Below the pieces are notes generated by a model. The model saw only the letters and a list, made by a program, of their open reading frames with translations, ran no database searches and was not told the origin of the DNA. Both the position numbers and the translations under genes were made by a program. From assembly GCA_023213195.1 (NCBI GenBank), contig CP096135.1, positions 1,196,616 to 1,260,615 of the forward strand: 64,000 nt of DNA. Direction: 5' to 3'. Below are positions 2,047-56,229 of this stretch, piece by piece (positions within the stretch are counted from its first letter, which is position 1; the number at the start of each line of letters is the position of its first letter). The stretch is from Sphingobacteriales bacterium JAD_PAG50586_3. GTDB lineage: Bacteria > Bacteroidota > Bacteroidia > CAMBQF01.

Positions 2047-2823
2047 ATGGCTGGATTTGGAGCTATAGAAGAAATACGTGCGGAATTGGAAGGTGCAATT
2101 GCGATACAGGGCTACTATCTTGTTAAGAATTTATTTACCGCAGCTGAGGTTGCTGCACTTAAAGCCGATTCAGTAAAATACATAGAGCAGGAGGCTGATG
2201 TGTATGGCCGCGAAGACAGCCAGTATGGCCGTATTTTTAGCTGTACATATTATGGCGGTAGTTTTATTAAGGTGTTGGAGCATCCGCAGTTTAACGAGCC
2301 TTTCCGTTGGTATTTGGGCGATTATTTTATTGTGCATGTATACACAACATCAAGCGTTCAGCCCGATGGTAAAAGCTTTTTCGGTGGTATGCATATTGAT
2401 AACAAACGTTTTTTGCCGCAGTATACAGAGGGTCTTGGTTGCCTTGTACTGCTTGATGATTTTACCATAGAAAACGGTGCTACTTATTTATTGCCGGGAA
2501 GCCATTTAAGCCCGTTGCAACCTTCAGATGGAGAGTTCTATCGCGATTCGGTAAGGTTAGTAGGCAATGCAGGCGATGTGCTGTATTTTAACCCTCGTTT
2601 GTGGCATGCAGCAGGGCGCAACAACACCGGCCAGTGGAGGCATTCACTATCACTGGGTATGAGCAGACCGCACATTAAACAGTATACAGATATTCCGGCA
2701 TCGTTAAAAAATGTTGATTTAAGTAACTATAGCGATACCGTATTGCAGCGCCTTGGGGTTTATGCGCAGGCCGCACCCAGTGTTGAAGAGTATTATAAAG
2801 GCTTTGGAAGAAAATGGAACTAA
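2047..2823 (+). CDS. PhyH-family Fe(II)/2-oxoglutarate-type dioxygenase, copy A
   Basis: The 258-aa protein belongs to the phytanoyl-CoA dioxygenase superfamily. The expected 2-His-1-carboxylate pieces are visible: HID in GGMHIDNKRF (near 118-120) and the distal His in RLWHAAGRN (near 193), with a later Arg in WRHSLSL as the usual 2-oxoglutarate-binding residue. The first in-frame ATG, at 2008, would place 13 residues over the divergent gene's start, so ATG 2047 is preferred. It overlaps the next gene, a paralogue, by 10 nt. PhyH proteins hydroxylate or halogenate lipids and small molecules; the substrate here is unknown. Confidence 0.8.
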   Translation: MAGFGAIEEIRAELEGAIAIQGYYLVKNLFTAAEVAALKADSVKYIEQEADVYGREDSQYGRIFSCTYYGGSFIKVLEHPQFNEPFRWYLGDYFIVHVYTTSSVQPDGKSFFGGMHIDNKRFLPQYTEGLGCLVLLDDFTIENGATYLLPGSHLSPLQPSDGEFYRDSVRLVGNAGDVLYFNPRLWHAAGRNNTGQWRHSLSLGMSRPHIKQYTDIPASLKNVDLSNYSDTVLQRLGVYAQAAPSVEEYYKGFGRKWN

Positions 2824-3562
2824 GCGAAGCAGAGATAAAGCAGTTTGAGGCAGAGGGTTATATTATTCGCACCAATGCTATTGCCGGCGATTTAATAGAA
2901 AGCCTGAAAGCAGCGGTTGCTAAAGGGCTGGCAGAGGAAGAAAAATATGCCGCATCACCCTTATATAAAAAAGGCGTGGTATCGCTTTGCCCTGTTTACA
3001 GTAACCAATTTTTAAAGTGCTTGAAACACCCGTTATAATGGATGCGGTAGATGGATTGTTAGGGCGCGATTGTGTGTTGCACCTTTACATGTCATCGTGC
3101 ATGCCGCCGGGCGAGTCTAACTATTCTGAACGGATACATGTAGACAACCCACGCTTTATTCCCGGTTATTTAGAGGGCATAGGCTGCATTGTAGCACTAG
3201 ACGATTTTACCATAGAAAACGGGGCTACCTACCTATTGCCGGGCGGGCATTTATTGCCTAACGAACCCAATACAGAAACCTTTTACAACAATGCCATCCG
3301 CTTTACTGCAAAGGCAGGTACTGCCCTTATTTTTAACGCGCGCCTATGGCATGCAGGTGGTGTAAACAACACCCCAAATTGGCGCTATGCTTTAGCTTTT
3401 GGCTTTTACAAACCCCACATAAAACAACGCATCAATATGCCACTGGCATTAAAAGATGTTGATTTAACTGGTATATCAGACTATGTAAAATATAAGCTGG
3501 GCTTTTTAGCAACCCCCGCCACAATAGAAGAGTATCAGGAGATTAGGAAGAGGTTGGGTTAG
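2814..3562 (+). CDS. PhyH-family dioxygenase, copy B (frameshifted)
   Basis: This is a paralogue of the preceding gene. The shared block DDFTIENGATYLLPG is identical in both, and both end in a conserved HIKQ...VDL...Y region. Copy B has HVD (ERIHVDNPRF) and LWHAGG as the metal ligands. The reading frame breaks near 3031-3035. One extra C in the CCC run gives ...CLKHP-VIMDAVDG... and a protein of about 250 aa. The overlapping start (2814, before the copy A stop at 2823) suggests co-translation. Copies A and B may act on related substrates or as a pair. The 3' end overlaps the convergent gene by 4 nt. Confidence 0.75.
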
Positions 3563-4573
3563 TTTTTAACTACCCTGCTATGGTATGTTTTATTTGTAAC
3601 GATATCCGTTATAGACAATAAATAAATACCCGGTTCCAGTCCGCTTAAATCAAGCTGTTCATTATATGTAGTGCCAGATTGTACAATGCTGCCCAACACA
3701 TTAAATACGGTAAATAAAGACTCGTCATTTATACCCTTAACAGTTATAATGCCGTCGGTAGGGCTAGGGTATAATTTAATATCAGATTCATATTCATCAA
3801 CCCCAATTACAAATACAAATGGCGGTAATGTACAGTCAAGTTCGCCATACAATATGCTATCGTTAACAGAATAGCAGGCAATGGTAATACTGTTGCTTTG
3901 TCCTTCACCTCCGCAACTTGTATAGTAAGCCCATTCGTTATAAAAATAGGTGCGTACATCACCTATTCCCTCAATCCACATGGGGGCCTTACAAAATACC
4001 ATACCCAGTTTTCGGGGTCTTCAATAGTACTAAAAACATATTTGTTTCTCACGCTGCCATCAGCCAATACAATGGGCTTTATACTATCAACTAAAAACGA
4101 TTGAGTAAACTCAAGTGTATCCCCCATTCTACTTCATATTTACAATGAAACATGCGCGTAGTAAAAGTATCGCCAACTTGTAGTGTAAAGTCGTAAAGTA
4201 AAAACTCTGTAGTGTCTAAATAAATGTTTGATGAAAGCAGCTCCTGTGTATAGCGTGGTAGGAATACATAGGCCGGGTATTTCATATATACCTTACCTGA
4301 ATCTTCTCTTATAAAGGCATACTCGAAATTATTGTTCTTGTCTTTTATAAGAGTATAATTTTTGCCGCCAATTAGAGTGTCGTTAGAATTATCTATACTG
4401 AAATTGTAATAATCCCAACCGCTACATTCAACGGTCATTCCATTAAGGTAGCAACTCATAATTCCCTGCCTCCACACCGTACTATCATTCAGCATAGGTA
4501 CATATTGCCCTAAGCCTTTACTTATAAAAGAGATAAAGAATACCGCAAGTAAGCAAATTCGTTTCATATTCAT
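3559..4573 (-). CDS. Secreted protein with T9SS type A sorting domain (two frameshifts)
   Basis: The N-terminus (MNMKRICLLAVFFISF...GLGQ) is a typical Sec signal peptide. The C-terminal 75 or so residues (KLYPSPTDGIITVKG ... GLEPGIYLLSI ... KTYHSRVVKN) are a type IX secretion sorting domain. The frame is broken twice, both times in five-base G/C runs on the plus strand: CCCCC at 4121-4125 and GGGGG near 3980-3985. Restoring one base at each gives a continuous protein of about 338 aa through EWGDTLEFTQSF and ENWVWYF. The middle region has no domain I recognise. The likely fate is export and attachment to, or release from, the cell surface by T9SS. Confidence 0.72.
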
Positions 4574-4580
4574 ATTTTAA

Positions 4581-4613
4581 ACCCCTCTCCTTTGGAGAGG
4601 GGCAGGGGTGAGG
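4581..4613 (-). repeat. GC-rich palindromic repeat, solo left end (R1)
   Basis: CCCCTCTCC-TTT-GGAGAGGGG is followed by CAGGGGTGAGG. This is the reverse orientation of the left end found beside the DUF559 gene at 50454-50492. It sits between two minus-strand secreted-protein genes. Confidence 0.8.
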
Positions 4614-4616
4614 CTA

Positions 4617-7551
4617 TTATTTCCCATCCAATACCGTAACAGTGCCGTTAAAGTCTTGCAGCTTATCTTGGTATTTAGTTTTGGCAATGTAATAATACAC
4701 CCCATCGCTAACCAGTTTGCCGCCCAGGTTTTTACCATCCCAAACAAAAGCCTTATCGGTGGTTTTGTAAACCAAAGTGCCCCAGCGGTTGTATACCAGT
4801 ATTTCAAACTCATCAAAATTGCCAATTACAAAGGGTTGCCATCCATCGTTAATACCATCGCCATTAGGCGTAAACACGTTCGGCAACGATAGCGGCACGT
4901 AGCAGGTGTCAACAATTACATTAAAGTTTTGCGTGGTAAAGCAAATCTCATTAGGCATACTAATGTCAACGTAGTAGTCGCCCGCTTCGGTTTTGGTAAC
5001 GCTTTGGGTGGTTTCGCCACTGCTCCACAAGTAGCTGTAATTCTGCCCCGTATCTGCCACCAGCGTAGCTGTTTCATCCAAACAAATAGTAAGGGTATCG
5101 TAAGTTAAAATGGGGTATTCTACAAACACCGTAACGGTATCAAAACTGGTACACCCCGGCGATATGGTTACCCTAACGTAGTAAGATGTTGCTGTATCGG
5201 GCGTAACCTCTTTTGTTTGCCCACCGCCAATAACCTGCGCACCTACAACACCCCATTGGTAGGTGCCGTTTACCTGCGTGGTACTTAGCGTAACGCTGCT
5301 GCCCTGAGCATATTGTGGTGTCAAGCCCCGTATCAACCGGTGGCGGATTCTTAACTAATACGTTTTTAGTGCCATTATCTTGCCCGCAGGGGTTAACTAC
5401 CAATACCTGGAACTGGCTTACGCCCGATGTATCAAACACCAGCGTTATCACGTTGTTAGATGTGTCTACAATAGAGGTATTAGCATTAACCGCCCACTCG
5501 TAATAGGTGTTGTTGGTAAACTGTACCTTGGTAGGTAACGGTATCGCCAACACAGGCCTGTGCAGGCCCTTGTATGGCAACGTTGGGCGAGCCAAAAATA
5601 TCAGACGGCAAGGTGTCAGACACCGGCCCGGCGCAGCCAAAATTAAATTCGCGCACGGTAAACAATAGCGTTCCCGGTCCGCCAAAGTTGACGTATAGCG
5701 GGTTAAACTCCCAGTTAAACGGTGCCCCGTTGTTTATACCATTGCACCACCACTGGTACTGCGATTGGAAGTTGTAGGGGTTAATAGTGTAGTTGCCAAT
5801 TTGCCCCACACAGTAGTAAGGTGCGCCGGCTATTATACTAGGTGGGAATGCGCTTGGCGCACCAATAGTCATGCGGATAATAGTGCCATTTACATCCCAC
5901 GGCACATCACTATCGGTAGAAATTACGCGTATGTAATATAAGCCTGGTTGCATACCTATGCCAAACAAGCCTGCAAGGTTAGGTATGGTCACGGTTATAG
6001 TGCCCGATGTGTTGCTTACCGTGCCGCCAATTACCCCGGTGTTTATTACCGCCAGCGTTTGGCTGCTTAGCACCTGTACCAAAAACTGGTTGGTGCCGCT
6101 GTAGGTTGATACTGTATCGTAATTGTGGATAGTATAGGTTATGGTGGTATCAGCGCCTTCCAACTCGTTTATACAAAAGCGTATATCCTGCTTGTTGTTG
6201 GTTTCAACATCGCAATGCTTAATACAAAATGGCCCGTATAAAGTGCCTATAGCTACCGGGTTTACAGATACTACACGGATGTAATAGTTGCAACCTTCGC
6301 TAACCGTATCGGGTATTAAACCGGCTACTGTACCGGGCATAGAGCCTTGGGCAGGGTCGTAGGTGTCGGAGTTAGCAAAAGCCCCCAGTACAGTATATGG
6401 CGGGGTGTTGGGGAATGTACCATCGGGCCTTGATAGTTGCGCAACATAACTGTTAGAGTTAGGTATATACACCCCTGTTGAGTAAAAAGGTACATCAATA
6501 ACGCTACCTGCGCACACGGTGTCTGGGTCCATTGTTACTACAGGTTGCAAGGTGGTTATGGTGTTAGGGCAAAAGGCCACCTCAAAGCAAATGCTTATAA
6601 CCCCCGTTATAGACGGGGCGGGGGAGACCCTGTTTATCCTGACTTTATAACAAGTGCCCGGTGTTGTGTTGTTGGGTATGGTGGGGTAAATAGCCCCGGT
6701 AGTTTGGTTGTTGTTTATGTTGAACACCCCTAAACTGGTTGGGTTACCGCCAAAATTACCGTTTACGTCAGACAGTTCAATCTCATATACCCCATCGCAC
6801 AAGGGCTGCGATAGTTGCCAAAAAGCAACACCCCATTGCCTTGGCACACAGGCACAGGTGTAATATTGGTTATGTTTATTGATACAGGGTTATTGGTATC
6901 GTAAGTACCAACAACGTTTATATCATCAATAGAAAACGATTGGTTGAATGGGGGCGTGCCTGTGCCATTTATCCATCGGAAACCAAAGCGAATATTGGGT
7001 TGATTGTTAAAGGCAGGGTTAGAAATAATCTCGTATTTCCAAAGGTTTTGGTCTTTATACTGACCTAAACCCGTTTGCACCTAAGGCCCGCTGTTTAAAG
7101 AGTAATATACCTCTCCGTATGCTCCCGGCCCACCCTCGGCAAGCCAGAAGAAGGTAAAGTTAACATCAGTAAAGCCCAGTGTACAAAAGCCATTGGTGGT
7201 AAACGCAAACTGGTCTGACGATACAACGGGGTTCCAGTTGGCGTTGCCAATACCCTGCAAAGTTTGTGCTATGGTATCGCGTACGTGCAGGTAGCGGCTA
7301 TTGGGCGCAAAGCTAATGGTGCCACTAACGGTTTGGTCTTGCGGTGTGGTATTGGGGTATACCGGCGCGCCGCTATACAGGTTGTTTATAGTCCATTTGT
7401 TAGAGCCTGTGGCTGTGCCAACCTGCCCGCCCTGGTTAAGGGTAAATGGCACAATAACGTCTTCAAAGTCTTCGTTATAAAGCTGTACCGTCTGGCTTTT
7501 GGCCGATACAACAATAAACAATGCCAATACGTAAAGTAAAAGTCTTTTCAT
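4617..7551 (-). CDS. Large secreted CHU_C (gliding-motility-type C-terminal) protein, several breaks
   Basis: This is one gene of about 978 codons, seen as five pieces. It begins with a signal peptide (MKRLLLYVLALFIVVSAKSQ), followed by a jelly-roll-like N-terminal region, several Ig/PKD-like strands and a final CHU_C domain (NVFTPNGDGINDGW ... VYNRWGTLVYKT ... DGVYYYIAKT). This domain is used as a T9SS type B sorting signal. Breaks: an in-frame TAG at 7081-7083 (TGG expected), a shift in the T5 run near 6820, one near 5525 and one near 5325. Correcting them yields continuous sequence. Four shifts plus a stop would suit a pseudogene, but the same density is seen in essential genes here, so sequence error is more likely. 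It is probably a surface adhesin or secreted structural protein. Confidence 0.72.
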
Positions 7552-10443: not shown

Positions 10444-10480
10444 CCCCCTCTCCCTTTAGGAGAGGGGGTTAGGGGTGAGG
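10444..10480 (-). repeat. GC-rich palindromic repeat, solo left end (R2)
   Basis: CCCCCTCTCC-CTTTA-GGAGAGGGGG is followed by TTAGGGGTGAGG. It belongs to the same family and orientation as 4581-4613 and 14674-14710. Confidence 0.85.
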
Positions 10481-10526
10481 TGAAAATCAACATTAAACAT
10501 TCTGAATTTTGCATTCTTCATTATTG

Positions 10527-48583: not shown

Positions 48584-48646
48584 ACTTTACATTGATTTTT
48601 AAGCATTGCAGGTAAGATAAATAGCCGAAAATTGGCTAAAATGTAC

Positions 48647-48654
48647 TATTTTTG
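48647..48654 (+). promoter_or_regulatory. -7 box close to lepA start
   Basis: TATTTTTG is an exact TAnnTTTG. It ends 7 nt before ATG 48662. It also excludes the longer ORF start at 48632. Confidence 0.7.
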
Positions 48655-48661
48655 CGCCCGC

Positions 48662-50451
48662 ATGAAGAATATACGCAATTTTTGCATTATAGCCCATATT
48701 GACCACGGTAAGAGCACCCTGGCCGACCGTTTATTGGAGTATACCAACACCGTATCTAAACGAGATTTGCAAGCCCAAGTGCTTGATGATATGGACTTGG
48801 AGCGCGAACGCGGCATTACCATTAAAAGTAAGGCTATACAAATGGATTATGAGTTTGAGGGCGAAAAATACACCTTAAACCTTATTGATACCCCAGGCCA
48901 CGTAGACTTTTCTTATGAAGTATCAAGGTCTATTGCCGCCTGCGATGGTGCTTTGCTTATTGTAGATGCATCGCAGGGTATACAGGCCCAAACCATATCT
49001 AACCTTTACCTTGCCTTGGGTAACGATTTGGAGATTATCCCCATTCTTAACAAAATGGACCTGCCCAGCGCTAATCCAGAGGAGGTTAAAGACCAGATTA
49101 TTGAACTTATTGGTGGCGACCGTGATGCTATTATACCTGCTAGTGGTAAAACCGGCATGGGTGTTTACGATATTTTAGAGGCCGTAATTAAGCGTGTGCC
49201 ACCCCAAAGGGTAACCCCGATGCTCCGCTGCAAGCCTTGATTTTCGATTCGGTATTTAACTCATTTCGTGGTATTATAGCCTACTTCCGTGTAATGAACG
49301 GCAGCATTAAAAAGGGCGATAAAGTAAAGTTTGTAAATACAGAGAAGGAATATATTGCTGATGAGGTTGGCATTTTGCGCTTAAAGCAAGAGCCCCGTAA
49401 CCAGGTTTTTTGTGGCGATGTGGGCTACATTATATCGGGTATTAAAGAAGCCCGCGAGGTTAAAGTGGGCGATACCATTATCCGCATGGGCGATGCTGAA
49501 GTAGAGCCTATACAAGGTTTTGAAGATGTTAAGCCGATGGTATTTGCGGGTATTTACCCGGTTGATACGGACGATTTTGAGGAGTTACGCTCTGCGATGG
49601 GCAAACTTCAGTTAAATGATGCATCGCTAACGTTTGAACTGGAAACATCGGCCGCTTTAGGTTTTGGCTTCCGTTGTGGGTTCTTAGGTATGCTCCACAT
49701 GGAGATTATACAGGAACGTTTGGAACGTGAGTTTGATATGACGGTAATTACTACCGTGCCCAACGTATCGTACCACGTTACCGATACCAAAGGGGTTGAA
49801 ACGGTGGTAAACAACCCATCAGAACTACCTGACGATGCCAGTAAAATTGAAAAGATTGAAGAGCCATACATCAAGGCTTCTATTATAAGTAAAGGCGAGT
49901 TTGTGGGTTCTATTATGACGCTATGTATTGATAAACGCGGCATAATAACAAATCAGGTTTACCTTACGGCAGACCGTGTAGAGCTTACTTTTGAAATGCC
50001 TTTGGCCGAGATTGTATTCGACTTTTACGATAGACTGAAAACCATTTCTAAAGGCTACGCATCATTTGATTATCACCCGATAGGTTACCGCGAATCGAAA
50101 CTCGTAAAGCTGGACTTAATGCTTAATGGCGAGCCGGTTGACGCGCTTTCTGCACTTATACATAAAGACAATGCCTACGATTTAGGCAAGCGCATTTGCG
50201 AAAAGCTGCGCGAACTTATTCCGCGCCAGCAGTTTGAAATTGCTATACAGGCTGCTATTGGTTCTAAAGTTATTGCCCGCGAAACAGTAAAAGCCCTGCG
50301 TAAAGACGTAACGGCTAAGTGTTACGGTGGCGACATTTCGCGTAAACGTAAGCTGCTTGAAAAGCAGAAAAAAGGTAAAAAGCGTATGCGCCAAGTTGGT
50401 AACGTAGAAATACCACAACAGGCGTTTATGGCGGTGTTGAAATTAGATTAA
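48662..50451 (+). CDS. lepA: Elongation factor 4 (LepA), frameshifted
   Basis: This translational GTPase back-translocates ribosomes and helps in assembly and stress. It starts [23 protein letters not shown] (G1). The G3 motif is [12 protein letters not shown] and the G4 is NKMDLP. The frame breaks near 49216-49219: one G in the GGG run gives [21 protein letters not shown]. LepA-specific CTD motifs follow: [22 protein letters not shown] and [20 protein letters not shown] (KKRMRQVG). Corrected length is about 597 aa, normal. The stop is only 2 nt before the DUF559 element. Confidence 0.96.
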
Positions 50452-50453
50452 AG

Positions 50454-50915
50454 ACCCCTCACCCTAACCCTCTCCCCTTAAAGGGAGAGGGGATAAAAAT
50501 GGACTACGCTAATAATCTATATAAAAATGCTACACCTAATATTCTTGAGAACGCAAGATTATTAAGGAATAACATGACACTAGCTGAGAGGGTATTGTGG
50601 GAAAGAATTAGAAGAAAGCAGATAAAAAGTGCTAGATTTAGAAATCAACACGCAATTGATGTATTTATTATTGACTTCTATTGCCATGAATTATTACTGG
50701 GTATTGAAGTAGATGGCAGCATACATAATTCAATAGAAGCTAAAGAGCGTGATGAGGGCCGATCGGCTGAACTATTAAAATACGGAATAAAAGTTATACG
50801 CTTCACGAATGAAGAAGTGCTTTATGACATCGATTCTGTAATAAAAGAAGTAGAAAAAATTATCGACGAATTGAAAGTCCTTCCCCTTCAAGGGGGAAGG
50901 ATTTAGGATAGGGGT
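50454..50915 (+). mobile_element. DUF559-carrying palindromic element, complete copy
   Basis: Left end: ACCCCTCACCCTAACCC, then a palindrome (CCCTCTCCC-CTTAAA-GGGAGAGGG, 50468-50491). The DUF559 gene lies in the middle. Right end: palindrome TCCTTCCCC-TTCAAG-GGGGAAGGA (50878-50901), then GGATTTAGGATAGGGGT. The left outer end read in reverse (GGGTTAGGGTGAGGGGT) matches the right end at 12 of 17 positions, so the ends are imperfect terminal inverted repeats. The element starts 2 nt after the lepA stop and ends 3 nt before the pyrF ATG. Solo or partial copies occur at 4581, 10444, 14674, 55257 and 55882. The mobility claim is inference; no target-site duplication was confirmed. Confidence 0.5.
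50499..50906 (+). CDS. DUF559 (Vsr-like) endonuclease-domain protein, copy 1
   Basis: The protein is 135 aa. DUF559 is a PD-(D/E)XK-like, Vsr-related domain. Visible residues: LWERIRRKQ (34-41), ARFRNQH (45-51), IIDFYCHELLLGIEVDGSIH (57-76, with Asp59, Glu70, Asp72, His76) and a second helix-bearing half EAKERDEGRSAELLKYGIKVIRFTN. The last about 10 residues (LPLQGGRI) are translated from the right-hand palindrome of the surrounding element, so the repeat and the gene are physically one unit. Activity is unproved for most members. It is about 60% identical by eye to copy 2 at 55350. Confidence 0.85.
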   Translation: MDYANNLYKNATPNILENARLLRNNMTLAERVLWERIRRKQIKSARFRNQHAIDVFIIDFYCHELLLGIEVDGSIHNSIEAKERDEGRSAELLKYGIKVIRFTNEEVLYDIDSVIKEVEKIIDELKVLPLQGGRI

Positions 50916-50918
50916 AAC

Positions 50919-51743
50919 ATGACCAGACAACAACTCATTTCTCAAATACGCGCCAAGCAATCGTTTTTGTGCGTTGGTTTAGATAGCGATATTACTAAGC
51001 TACCGGCGGTGGTGCGTACCGCGGCCGACCCTGTTTTTGAATTCAACAAGGCCATTATAGAAGCTACGCACGATTTGTGCGTGGCCTATAAACCCAACCT
51101 TGCGTTTTACGAATCGCTAGGGCCTAAGGGGTGGGATACGCTGCAAAAAACCTTGGAGGTAATACCACAAGATGTGTTTACCATTGCCGATGCAAAGCGT
51201 GGCGATATTGGCAACACTGGCGAGCAATACGCCAAGGCGTTTTTTAATGAGTTGTGCTTTGACAGCATAACCCTATCGCCCTATATGGGCAAAGACAGTA
51301 TTGTGCCTTTTCTTAAACAGGATGGTAAATGGGCTATTGTGCTGGCCTTAACATCTAACGAGGGGGCAATGGATTTTCAAACCCTATCGCTGGAAACATT
51401 TGATGGGCCTGAAAAGGTGTATGAGCGTGTGTTGAAGTCAGTAGCTAACTGGGGTACCGACGCTAATACCATGTTTGTAGTAGGCGCTACCCGCCCCGAG
51501 ATGTTGGGCGAGGTGCGTAAGCTGGTACCTAACCATTTCTTTTTAGTCCCCGGTGTAGGGGCACAAGGCGGCTCTTTACAAGATGTTTGCAAGTATGGCT
51601 TGAATGAGGATGTGGGTTTGTTAGTGAATGCTTCGCGCTCTATCATATTCGCATCAGATGGGCCTGACTTTGCAGAAAAAGCAAGGGTCGAGGCTTTGAA
51701 AATGCAGCAGGAAATGGCTGTCATTCTGAGTGAAAAACTGTAA
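50919..51743 (+). CDS. pyrF: Orotidine 5'-phosphate decarboxylase
   Basis: The 274-aa enzyme makes UMP. It belongs to the larger OMPDC group (type 2): FLCVGLDSDITKLP, CVAYKPNLAFYESLGPKGW, FTIADAKRGDIGNTGEQYAKAF (catalytic DxKxxD), TLSPYMGKDSIVPFL, VGATRPEMLGEVRKLVPNHFFLVPGVGAQGG and LLVNASRSIIFAS. Its start codon is 3 nt past the DUF559 element, so any promoter must be inside the element or upstream of lepA. This placement suggests the insert sits in an older lepA-pyrF intergenic gap. Confidence 0.95.
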   Translation: MTRQQLISQIRAKQSFLCVGLDSDITKLPAVVRTAADPVFEFNKAIIEATHDLCVAYKPNLAFYESLGPKGWDTLQKTLEVIPQDVFTIADAKRGDIGNTGEQYAKAFFNELCFDSITLSPYMGKDSIVPFLKQDGKWAIVLALTSNEGAMDFQTLSLETFDGPEKVYERVLKSVANWGTDANTMFVVGATRPEMLGEVRKLVPNHFFLVPGVGAQGGSLQDVCKYGLNEDVGLLVNASRSIIFASDGPDFAEKARVEALKMQQEMAVILSEKL

Positions 51744-54875: not shown

Positions 54876-55256
54876 ATGTCAACACTAAAAATACCCGCAG
54901 GCTACAACGCTGTAATGCCTTACCTGATTGTGAACGATGCTGCAACGCTTATGCAGTTTTTAACTACTGTGTTTGATGCAAAGCTGAAAATGCACCACCC
55001 CAACCCCGATGGTAGTTATGGCCATGCCGAGGTAACTGTAGGTGATAGCTGCATTATGTTTTCTGAAACCATGAAGGGCTTTGAAGCTAATACCGCAGGC
55101 CTTTTTATTTATGTAGACAATGCCGATGAACGCTACAAGCTGGCATTGGAAAATGGGGCCACATCTATTATGCCGCCCGCCGACCAGGATTATGGCCGAA
55201 GTTGCGGTGTTAAAGACATTAACGGCAATACGTGGTGGATAACATCGGCTAAGTAA
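54876..55256 (+). CDS. VOC-family (PhnB/glyoxalase-like) protein
   Basis: The 126-aa protein has the paired beta-alpha-beta-beta-beta repeats of the vicinal oxygen chelate fold: YNAVMPYLIVNDAATLMQFLTTVFDAKLKMHHPNPDGSYGHAEV, then FEANTAGLFIYVDNADERYKLALENGATSIMPPADQDYGRSCGVKDINGNTWWIT. The 'PhnB' type often acts on unknown small molecules. It has a standard length. It stops directly before a gene-less copy of the palindromic element. Confidence 0.88.
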   Translation: MSTLKIPAGYNAVMPYLIVNDAATLMQFLTTVFDAKLKMHHPNPDGSYGHAEVTVGDSCIMFSETMKGFEANTAGLFIYVDNADERYKLALENGATSIMPPADQDYGRSCGVKDINGNTWWITSAK

Positions 55257-55334
55257 CCCCCACCCCAACCCTCCCCTTAAAGGGGAGGGAGCAAAGTCCT
55301 TTCCCCATGTGGGGAAAGGATTTAGGATAGGGGT
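55257..55334 (+). repeat. Gene-less (MITE-like) copy of the palindromic element (R7)
   Basis: Left end CCCCCACCCCAACCC with palindrome CCCTCCCCTT-A-AAGGGGAGGG (55269-55289), an 7-nt joint AGCAAAG, then the right palindrome TCCTTTCCCC-ATGT-GGGGAAAGGA (55297-55320) and the same right end GGATTTAGGATAGGGGT as in copy 1. It has both ends of the 50454-50915 element but no gene in between. It begins right after the VOC stop codon. Confidence 0.8.
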
Positions 55335-55349
55335 AAATTTAAAAAAGAC

Positions 55350-55742
55350 ATGGATTATTTAGAAAGCCTACATAGAAATGCCACGCCAAAAATTATTGAT
55401 AATGCTAATAATTTGAGGCAAAATATGACGGGTGCGGAGAAGCACTTATGGTCGAGGATAAGACGTAAACAGGTTTATGGGGCCAGATTTAGAAAACAAC
55501 ATCCTATTGATTTTTTTATACTTGATTTTTATTGCCACGAATTACTCCTGGGAATAGAAGTTGATGGTGTTATACATGCATCTGTTGAAGCGAAAGAATA
55601 TGATGAAGGTCGGACTTTTGAGTTGGAAAGGTATGGTATTAGGATAATAAGATTTACAAATGATGATGTGTTAAATAAAATTGACGACGTAATTAAGCAG
55701 ATAGAAAATACCATTGCAGAAATTAAAAGAAGCACCGTTTAA
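55350..55742 (+). CDS. DUF559 (Vsr-like) endonuclease-domain protein, copy 2
   Basis: The 130-aa protein aligns end to end with copy 1: LWSRIRRKQ, ARFRKQH, ILDFYCHELLLGIEVDGVIH (the same Asp/Glu/Asp/His), EAKEYDEGRTFELERYGIRIIRFTN. It differs in that it sits 15 nt after a complete gene-less element instead of inside one, and its C-terminus (AEIKRSTV) is not repeat-derived. A left-end-type repeat (55882) lies about 140 nt downstream. It may be an older, decayed insertion. Confidence 0.85.
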   Translation: MDYLESLHRNATPKIIDNANNLRQNMTGAEKHLWSRIRRKQVYGARFRKQHPIDFFILDFYCHELLLGIEVDGVIHASVEAKEYDEGRTFELERYGIRIIRFTNDDVLNKIDDVIKQIENTIAEIKRSTV

Positions 55743-55795
55743 ATAATTAATACAGGCATGTCTTGTAATATTTATTAACATTTATTATTTTTAAC

Positions 55796-55827
55796 TTGAC
55801 ATTTGGTGTCGAGTTGTTGTATCTTTG
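55796..55827 (+). promoter_or_regulatory. Orphan consensus promoter
   Basis: TTG at 55796-55798, 21 nt, TATCTTTG at 55820-55827. Both elements are exact, yet no ORF follows in the next 600 bp. Possible product: an untranslated RNA, or the promoter of a deleted gene. Confidence 0.55.
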
Positions 55828-55881
55828 TGGTGTTATTGCAATGACAGATTATTAGTACAAACTAAAAACAATTGCCGCGGC

Positions 55882-55916
55882 ACCCCTCCCCAACCCCTCC
55901 CCCAAAGGGAGAGGGG
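55882..55916 (+). repeat. GC-rich palindromic repeat, solo left end (R8)
   Basis: ACCCCTCCCCAACCCC, then CTCCC-CCAAA-GGGAG and AGGGG. This is the left-end type in the same orientation as at 50454. Confidence 0.75.
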
Positions 55917-56229
55917 CTTTAAAAAGAGGATAATACCTACAATGCTTATTACGATTCGGGATTAATGGTTTAAGAAAGAATTTAAGATAAATAGTTTAGC
56001 AAGAGGATAACGCTTAAACAACTAGCCATTTAGTTGGTCAGTAGCTAAATTGTTATGATAAGTTTTGTCACCCACAGGCAATTCGTGCAAACGGGTTGCC
56101 TTGAGGTGTTTTTTCTAATTAATAATTATGAATTAGTAATTATTAGAAGGATATGGACTTGAAAAGGAAGGGAGTTTAAAAAATGTGAGCAGAAATGATA
56201 TGGTTTGCAGGGGAGAGTCTGAAATATGG

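Follow-up and report, generated by a model that had tools for sequence, protein, structure and literature searches.

A short gene of the DUF559 family lies between two palindromes in the gap between lepA and pyrF, within a 64,000-nt stretch of the genome of Sphingobacteriales bacterium JAD_PAG50586_3 (CP096135.1, positions 1,196,616 to 1,260,615, forward strand; this whole stretch is termed the window). The locus raises the question of how the gene and its palindromic borders belong together, and whether they are one mobile unit. The insert is probably one copy of a family of hairpin-ended DUF559 elements, likely spread in a homing-like manner by the predicted Vsr-like endonuclease. At the level of sequence, this reading is based on hairpins paired at the ends, on copies that have or lack the gene, on empty sites, on recurrent in-frame copies and on invariant residues; the DUF559 nuclease itself would be the mover of the element.

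The unit between lepA and pyrF

The 462-nt unit (50454-50915) fills the gap between the two genes, beginning 2 nt after the lepA stop (TAA at 50451) and ending 3 nt before the pyrF start (ATG at 50919). This tight fit had been claimed in the first-pass annotation, and both gaps were read in the sequence. The gene had also been described as enclosed by a left palindrome and a different right palindrome, and both hairpins were located at the ends of the unit. Each hairpin, the left at 50468-50491 and the right at 50875-50904, has arms of 12 nt with 92% complementarity. When the corresponding 45-nt stretches were folded as single-stranded DNA, z-scores of -2.6 and -3.3 were obtained, with 2 and 1 of 200 shuffles as good, respectively. 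The outer 17 nt, proposed to be imperfect inverted repeats, matched at 12 of 17 positions when counted by eye, and the whole arms (50454-50490 and 50879-50915) were 73% complementary. The two ends read TAGGATAGGGGT and AGGGTGAGGGGT, and the stop codon of the DUF559 gene falls within the right end.

The encoded protein matched Pfam PF04480 with an E-value of 2.5e-29 and 101.8 bits against a cut-off of 20.6, and a second copy in the window scored 107.4 bits. The catalytic-type residues of DUF559 were invariant. The fold matched Vsr, a mismatch-repair nickase, and the homing endonuclease I-Bth0305I, the latter also with detectable profile similarity, and a Vsr/EDxHD-like PD-(D/E)XK nuclease fold was shared over most of the domain. 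Chains of the mitochondrial ribosome were also ranked by Foldseek and were taken to share the fold only. The enzyme side is partly in print: the section on inteins in PMC9403480 assigns a Thermosynechococcus DUF559 gene to the EDxHD homing endonuclease family, and the passages on VsrA in PMC12907096 present a Caulobacter DUF559 protein as Vsr-like.

A second DUF559 unit, missed in the first-pass annotation, was found in the window at 55256-55917 (Table 1). Within it, a three-way junction with the terminal repeats as its closing stem was predicted for the stretch 55257-55338 (z -3.8, equalled by 0 of 200 shuffles). Seven strong stems (no mismatch, 8 bp or longer, 6 or more G-C pairs, loop of 3-6 nt) were counted in the 64-kb window, and four of them belong to the two DUF559 units. 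The upstream neighbour, lepA (48632-50451), is present as two overlapping frames of 202 and 404 aa, the frame being shifted near 49240.

Table 1. Element ends and DUF559 genes located in the window
Feature	Position	Strand	Description
Left end	50454..50492	+	Terminal stretch ACCCCTCACCCTAA, then hairpin 50468-50491
DUF559 (PF04480) gene	50499..50906	+	135 aa; predicted Vsr/I-Bth0305I-like endonuclease
Right end	50874..50915	+	AAAGTCC-hairpin-GGATTTAGGATAGGGGT; core found again in other genomes of the class
Gene-less doublet, both end types complete	55256..55334	+	Directly upstream of second DUF559 gene
Second DUF559 gene	55350..55742	+	130 aa; 64% identical to first
Third palindrome, left-end type	55882..55917	+	Downstream of second DUF559 gene
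Single left-type end, gene-less	4581..4614	-	Hairpin 4582-4602 plus GGGGTGAGGC
Single left-type end, gene-less	10444..10481	-	Hairpin 10444-10468 plus TTAGGGGTGAGGT

Hairpin ends with and without the gene

The window's genome (4.16 Mb) contains 11 DUF559 genes, and the core of the right end, AAGTCCT...AGGATTTAGG, was found at 22 sites in it, many of them gene-less. Ten of these 22 sites were read in more detail: all lie far from the 11 genes, none is crossed by a frame longer than 125 aa, and about seven have a left-type hairpin at most 110 bases away. At L020 and L021 the hairpins form back-to-back pairs with a few bases in between. Copies with and without the DUF559 gene have the same two ends.

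Other arrangements were also seen. Around L011 (region L161), a DUF559 gene is located among repeated copies of another palindrome family (CTCCCTTTATAAGGGAGAG, CCCCCTTATAAAGGGGTGG). In region L162 (G000:C1:2784500-2793000, G000 being the window's genome), two DUF559 genes whose proteins are 95% identical start 561 bp apart, each between similar palindromes, and are likely the product of a recent tandem duplication. RAYT-like Y1 systems (L023, L024 and L025) exist beside the DUF559 system in the same genome.

Three sites were compared with two genomes of the same genus, G001 and G002. The lepA-pyrF site was vacant in G001, where the joint between the two genes is 12 nt, and was taken by another gene in G002. 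In leuS of the window's genome (L155, G000:C1:371500-379500, approximately 2451-5890), a DUF559 domain occupies a recurrent position in leucyl-tRNA synthetase (LeuRS), termed site A, which was also filled in G001 and was empty in G002. This insert has AGCC and GGCT at its ends and seems to have taken the place of part of the host loop. At L009, two hairpins with the gene between them were present in the window's genome and in G002, and one solo hairpin was present in G001.

Palindromes were also found next to the DUF559 genes of related genomes. For 97 loci of the class (5 of 102 domain rows were dropped because of contig ends or runs of N), the hairpin scores of the flanks had medians of 22-24, compared to 13 at 97 control positions in the same loci. 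The 95% level of the controls was exceeded by 69 left and 70 right flanks, by both at 53 loci and by neither at 11. The sets of 102 and 132 rows hold duplicates, L026 and L055 being one gene and L073 and P0001 one domain sequence. The link was weaker in a scan of named genomes, in which the best 80 of 572 relatives were used: among the 70 scorable loci, 29 left and 34 right flanks passed, with both passing at 25. These best 80 were mostly from Bacteroidota, with Cyanobacteria, Chloroflexi, Patescibacteria and Chlorobiota also present. The right end in Phormidium tenue (L318), AAAGTCC-hairpin-GGATTTAGG, is of the same type as in the window; at this locus the repeat AAAGTCCCCCAGAATTGGGGGATTTAGGGGG was observed on both sides of the DUF559 gene.

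The right-end pattern was present in 42 of 295 genomes of the class, including the window's. DUF559 was found in 39 of these 42 and in 99 of the 253 genomes lacking the pattern (odds ratio 20, Fisher p 2e-11, uncorrected for kinship). A single match without a hairpin in G032, likely due to chance, was kept in the 42, and a control pattern read backwards gave scattered single matches. The sharing of 8-mers between flanks rose with DUF559 protein identity, such that different lineages have different hairpins: Mantel r was 0.60 for the stand-alone copies (41) and 0.42 for the embedded ones (59), with 0 of 999 permutations as high, and fell to 0.31 and 0.23, respectively, without pairs above 60% identity; this co-variation is partly shared descent of whole loci. 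CGTC-type repeat motifs were near DUF559 in 3 of 102 rows.

DUF559 domains inside host proteins

In 60 genomes (the window's included), DUF559 was detected in 37, with many of the matches within long open frames. Of the long frames, 26 were read, and these had DUF559 inserted in frame, mostly between translated palindromes, apart from a few (L061, L065 and L080) that are no such inserts. The hosts among the 26 frames were LeuRS, MetH, RecG, RecJ, HsdR, SpoIIE-type phosphatases, Eco57I-type enzymes and others, and MutS is also among the host families. A database search with an embedded domain returned 122 long proteins, the best 120 of which were used. Among the listed matches and loci, near-copies included, the host clusters were LeuRS (102 rows), MetH (16), IleRS (9), methylmalonyl/isobutyryl-CoA mutase (9), RecG (8), MetRS (4), acetyl-CoA synthetase (4) and many smaller ones; the named loci (best 80 of 572) contributed further hosts, namely MnmE, a type ISP enzyme and riboflavin synthase. 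In total, at least 20 families serve as hosts, including four tRNA synthetases that are related to one another. DUF559 forms a terminal extension in the RluD-type case and in PurL.

Carriers included isolates, namely Aggregatimonas sangjinii and Marinilabilia rubra (LeuRS, P0039 of 1160 aa, and IleRS, respectively), Flavobacterium indicum and Flavobacterium difficile (both RecG), Dysgonomonas sp. ZJ709 (ValRS) and Runella zeae (MnmE), and errors in draft metagenomes therefore do not explain the in-frame copies. The frames run through the embedded copies that were read. Splicing was considered and rejected, since Rfam intron models gave 0 matches at the insert in 8 filled loci at the gathering cut-off, and no intein/Hint splicing domain was among the Pfam matches of 26 scanned proteins. 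The palindromes are translated in frame within unrelated proteins, and inspection by eye showed gene-less palindromes in frame in the G021 pyrF and, in L193, at LeuRS site B. The former (L151) is a tandem run of in-frame palindromic repeats (NSPLEKGIDVNSPLEKGARG) without DUF559.

Insertion was recurrent within LeuRS. All 102 LeuRS rows fell at two places, although the database part of these counts is biased because the query was the site-A domain. Of the 102, 94 rows were at site A, near reference residues 291-298; both edges fell within 285-300 in 90 of them, and genomes of the class supplied 14. The remaining 8 rows, all from the class, were at about 534-538. In a comparison of 25 matched loci, 5 of them filled, site A was a loop of constant length in the unfilled relatives, and 17 of these 20 had 18 residues between the motifs.

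Among 48 LeuRS rows picked by hand for comparison of host and domain identity, 10 had far hosts (approximately 40% identical to the reference), two of them Patescibacteria (P0008 and P0035), with the same loop filled. From pairs of reference-like hosts (703 pairs) to pairs of a like and a far host (380 pairs), host identity dropped from 70.6% to 51.1%, whereas DUF559 identity was 49.6% and 47.8% (maximum 61%), respectively. DUF559 identity exceeded host identity in 89 of the 380 like-far pairs and 8 of the 703 like pairs; within the far hosts (45 pairs), DUF559 was 59.8% and the host 66.7% identical. In a tree of 172 domains, the host-site label required 45 changes compared to a shuffled mean of 107, and stand-alone and embedded copies separated with 7 changes against 36. 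For this tree L061 and L065 were left out, near-identical proteins were thinned, and L080 was under the score limit. Recurrence at the same site of a conserved gene that does not simply follow host descent is a homing feature, and was seen here in a sample that is biased.

Mechanism, alternatives and known systems

In the proposed mechanism, the nuclease would cut or nick an unoccupied target, which may be an allele lacking the element or a hairpin end that the genome already has, and repair would copy the element into the opened target, as in homing. Gene-less hairpin pairs would be non-autonomous copies moved in trans by a borrowed enzyme. Inside genes, selection would keep only in-frame copies in tolerant loops, and the host protein would then carry the nuclease as an extra, unspliced domain. 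With a little less assurance than for the family itself, the elements may well constitute a new mobile class: a DUF559 nuclease with REPIN-like ends that homes across phyla and is an active, unspliced domain in essential proteins, with gene-less pairs multiplying non-autonomously. The first-pass annotation had suggested a new kind of repeat-coupled nuclease element, and the palindromic flanks, the empty site and the shared ends support this.

Several observations weigh against this reading. Regarding the enzyme, the invariance of its catalytic-type residues partly results from the domains having been found by similarity, and the Caulobacter protein VsrA, in the passages of PMC12907096 that concern it, is presented as a Vsr-like protein of the host rather than as a mobile element. 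Regarding the ends, neither flank passed in 32 of the 70 scorable named loci, so that such ends may not accompany every DUF559 gene. The odds ratio for the right-end pattern is uncorrected for kinship, 3 of the 42 genomes with the pattern lack DUF559 (G008 with 4 sites, G119 and G241), and 99 of 138 DUF559 genomes lack this type of right end; most genomes used are drafts. The contrast between filled and empty sites at lepA-pyrF, LeuRS and L009 fits gain or loss alike, and target duplications were not evident at these three sites against the empty ones, whose flanks are diverged. The frames of the leuS copy in the window's genome are broken by two frame shifts, which together with the shift in lepA suggest small assembly errors in that genome. 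The set of long proteins, sought with the LeuRS site-A domain, holds near-copies and biases the host numbers. The host was at least as alike as DUF559 in 291 of the 380 like-far pairs and 695 of the 703 like pairs, the domain tree covers 143 columns, which is short, and has weak resolution, with 58 of its 168 branches open, and recurrent sites could stem from structural tolerance alone.

Among the rival mechanisms, the foremost is a plain homing endonuclease role for DUF559, whose targets would be palindromes spread by another agent; the hairpins would then be its target and not the ends of an element. This is unlikely. The solo hairpin of G001 at L009, where the other two genomes have two hairpins and the gene, would be such a target and fits both mechanisms; it could equally be a deletion product. 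The ten gene-less right-end copies and the homing endonuclease among the nearest solved relatives also agree with it. Hairpin families co-vary with DUF559 lineages, however, and the right end is mostly confined to DUF559 genomes, which would be unexpected if another agent spread it.

An HUH/Y1 (RAYT-like) transposase could instead mobilise the palindromes, with DUF559 as a passenger only. The hairpin doublets resemble REPINs, the window's genome has three Y1 genes, and Y1_Tnp is commoner in the pattern genomes (38 of 42, compared to 164 of 253 others). The odds ratio for Y1_Tnp is 5, however, against 20 for DUF559, and by gene content the pattern was present in 3 of 85 genomes with Y1 only, 4 of 21 with DUF559 only, 35 of 117 with both and 0 of 72 with neither. 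Moreover, the three Y1 genes are each flanked by other palindromes, as judged by eye, and DUF559 has retained all of its catalytic-type residues. On the weaker association and the other flanking palindromes, Y1 transposases were rejected as movers, and this explanation is considered quite improbable.

It is more doubtful still that DUF559 is a host-useful repair or defence domain fused to many proteins, next to which the hairpins are incidental. Strong purifying selection on DUF559 would suit such a role, as would the restriction or repair proteins among the hosts and the Caulobacter protein, which the same passages of PMC12907096 describe as a cause of the SOS response in cells that lack a methylase. 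Many hosts, however, are unrelated housekeeping enzymes, presence varies within one genus, the flanks encode translated palindromes and, in far hosts, insertion is again in that one loop. GC-rich intergenic hairpins are often terminators, but an ordinary intergenic gene between transcription terminators is scarcely credible here, as one hairpin precedes the gene, the two hairpins form an inverted pair, ends of this kind also occur inside open reading frames and the site is empty in a relative.

The preferred reading, a homing-like hairpin-ended DUF559 element, was compared with known systems. The REP/RAYT parallel drawn in the first-pass annotation is apt as an analogy: as in REP/REPIN-RAYT systems (REPtrons), short hairpins occur singly or as inverted pairs, gene-less copies exist and a small nuclease-like gene is linked, with ends that co-vary with the gene lineage. 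Unlike in those systems, the linked gene is DUF559 (Vsr-like) and not a Y1 (HUH) tyrosine transposase, the GTAG tetranucleotide is absent from the two ends read in the window, and insertion occurs in frame into conserved genes together with the nuclease gene. The account of REP features in PMC3733652 includes REPs inside genes. In-frame insertion in essential genes of relatives gives the element a closer resemblance to a homing element than to a RAYT. Rickettsia palindromic elements (RPEs) also insert in frame in unrelated protein genes, but the description of them in PMC10969869 gives a length of approximately 150 bp and an open reading frame for a conserved peptide, with no nuclease in the portion concerned. 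In PMC3733652, the part on CGTC-tagged repeats, which include the ends of the R. conorii RPE, presents them as apparently without a dedicated transposase.

The EDxHD homing endonucleases (I-Bth0305I) share the fold, the profile similarity and the recurrent sites in conserved genes. According to the relevant section of PMC3943268, homing endonucleases ride on self-splicing introns or inteins or stand free; here no intron or intein was found at the loci and proteins scanned, and the nuclease is read as part of the host protein. In contrast to the Vsr very-short-patch repair endonuclease and Caulobacter VsrA, DUF559 here is embedded or a palindrome-flanked gene. By analogy, the layout would resemble REP/RAYT, the in-frame habit RPEs and the enzyme homing endonucleases. 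In the literature searched, which left most subscription journals uncovered, no description of a palindrome-ended, unspliced DUF559 element was found, nor was DUF559 connected there with palindromic ends or with in-frame insertion that goes unspliced.

If this reading is correct, DUF559, a family of unknown function in Pfam, would be the engine of a widespread mobile element, and the in-frame palindromic insertions known from RPEs would gain a testable candidate kind of driver. A mobile nuclease would live unspliced inside leucyl-tRNA synthetase and other essential enzymes, which would matter for the acquisition of domains by proteins and for the reading of enzyme sequences deposited in databases. 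A large set of orphan palindromic repeats, from Bacteroidota, Cyanobacteria and further phyla, would also be given a mover.
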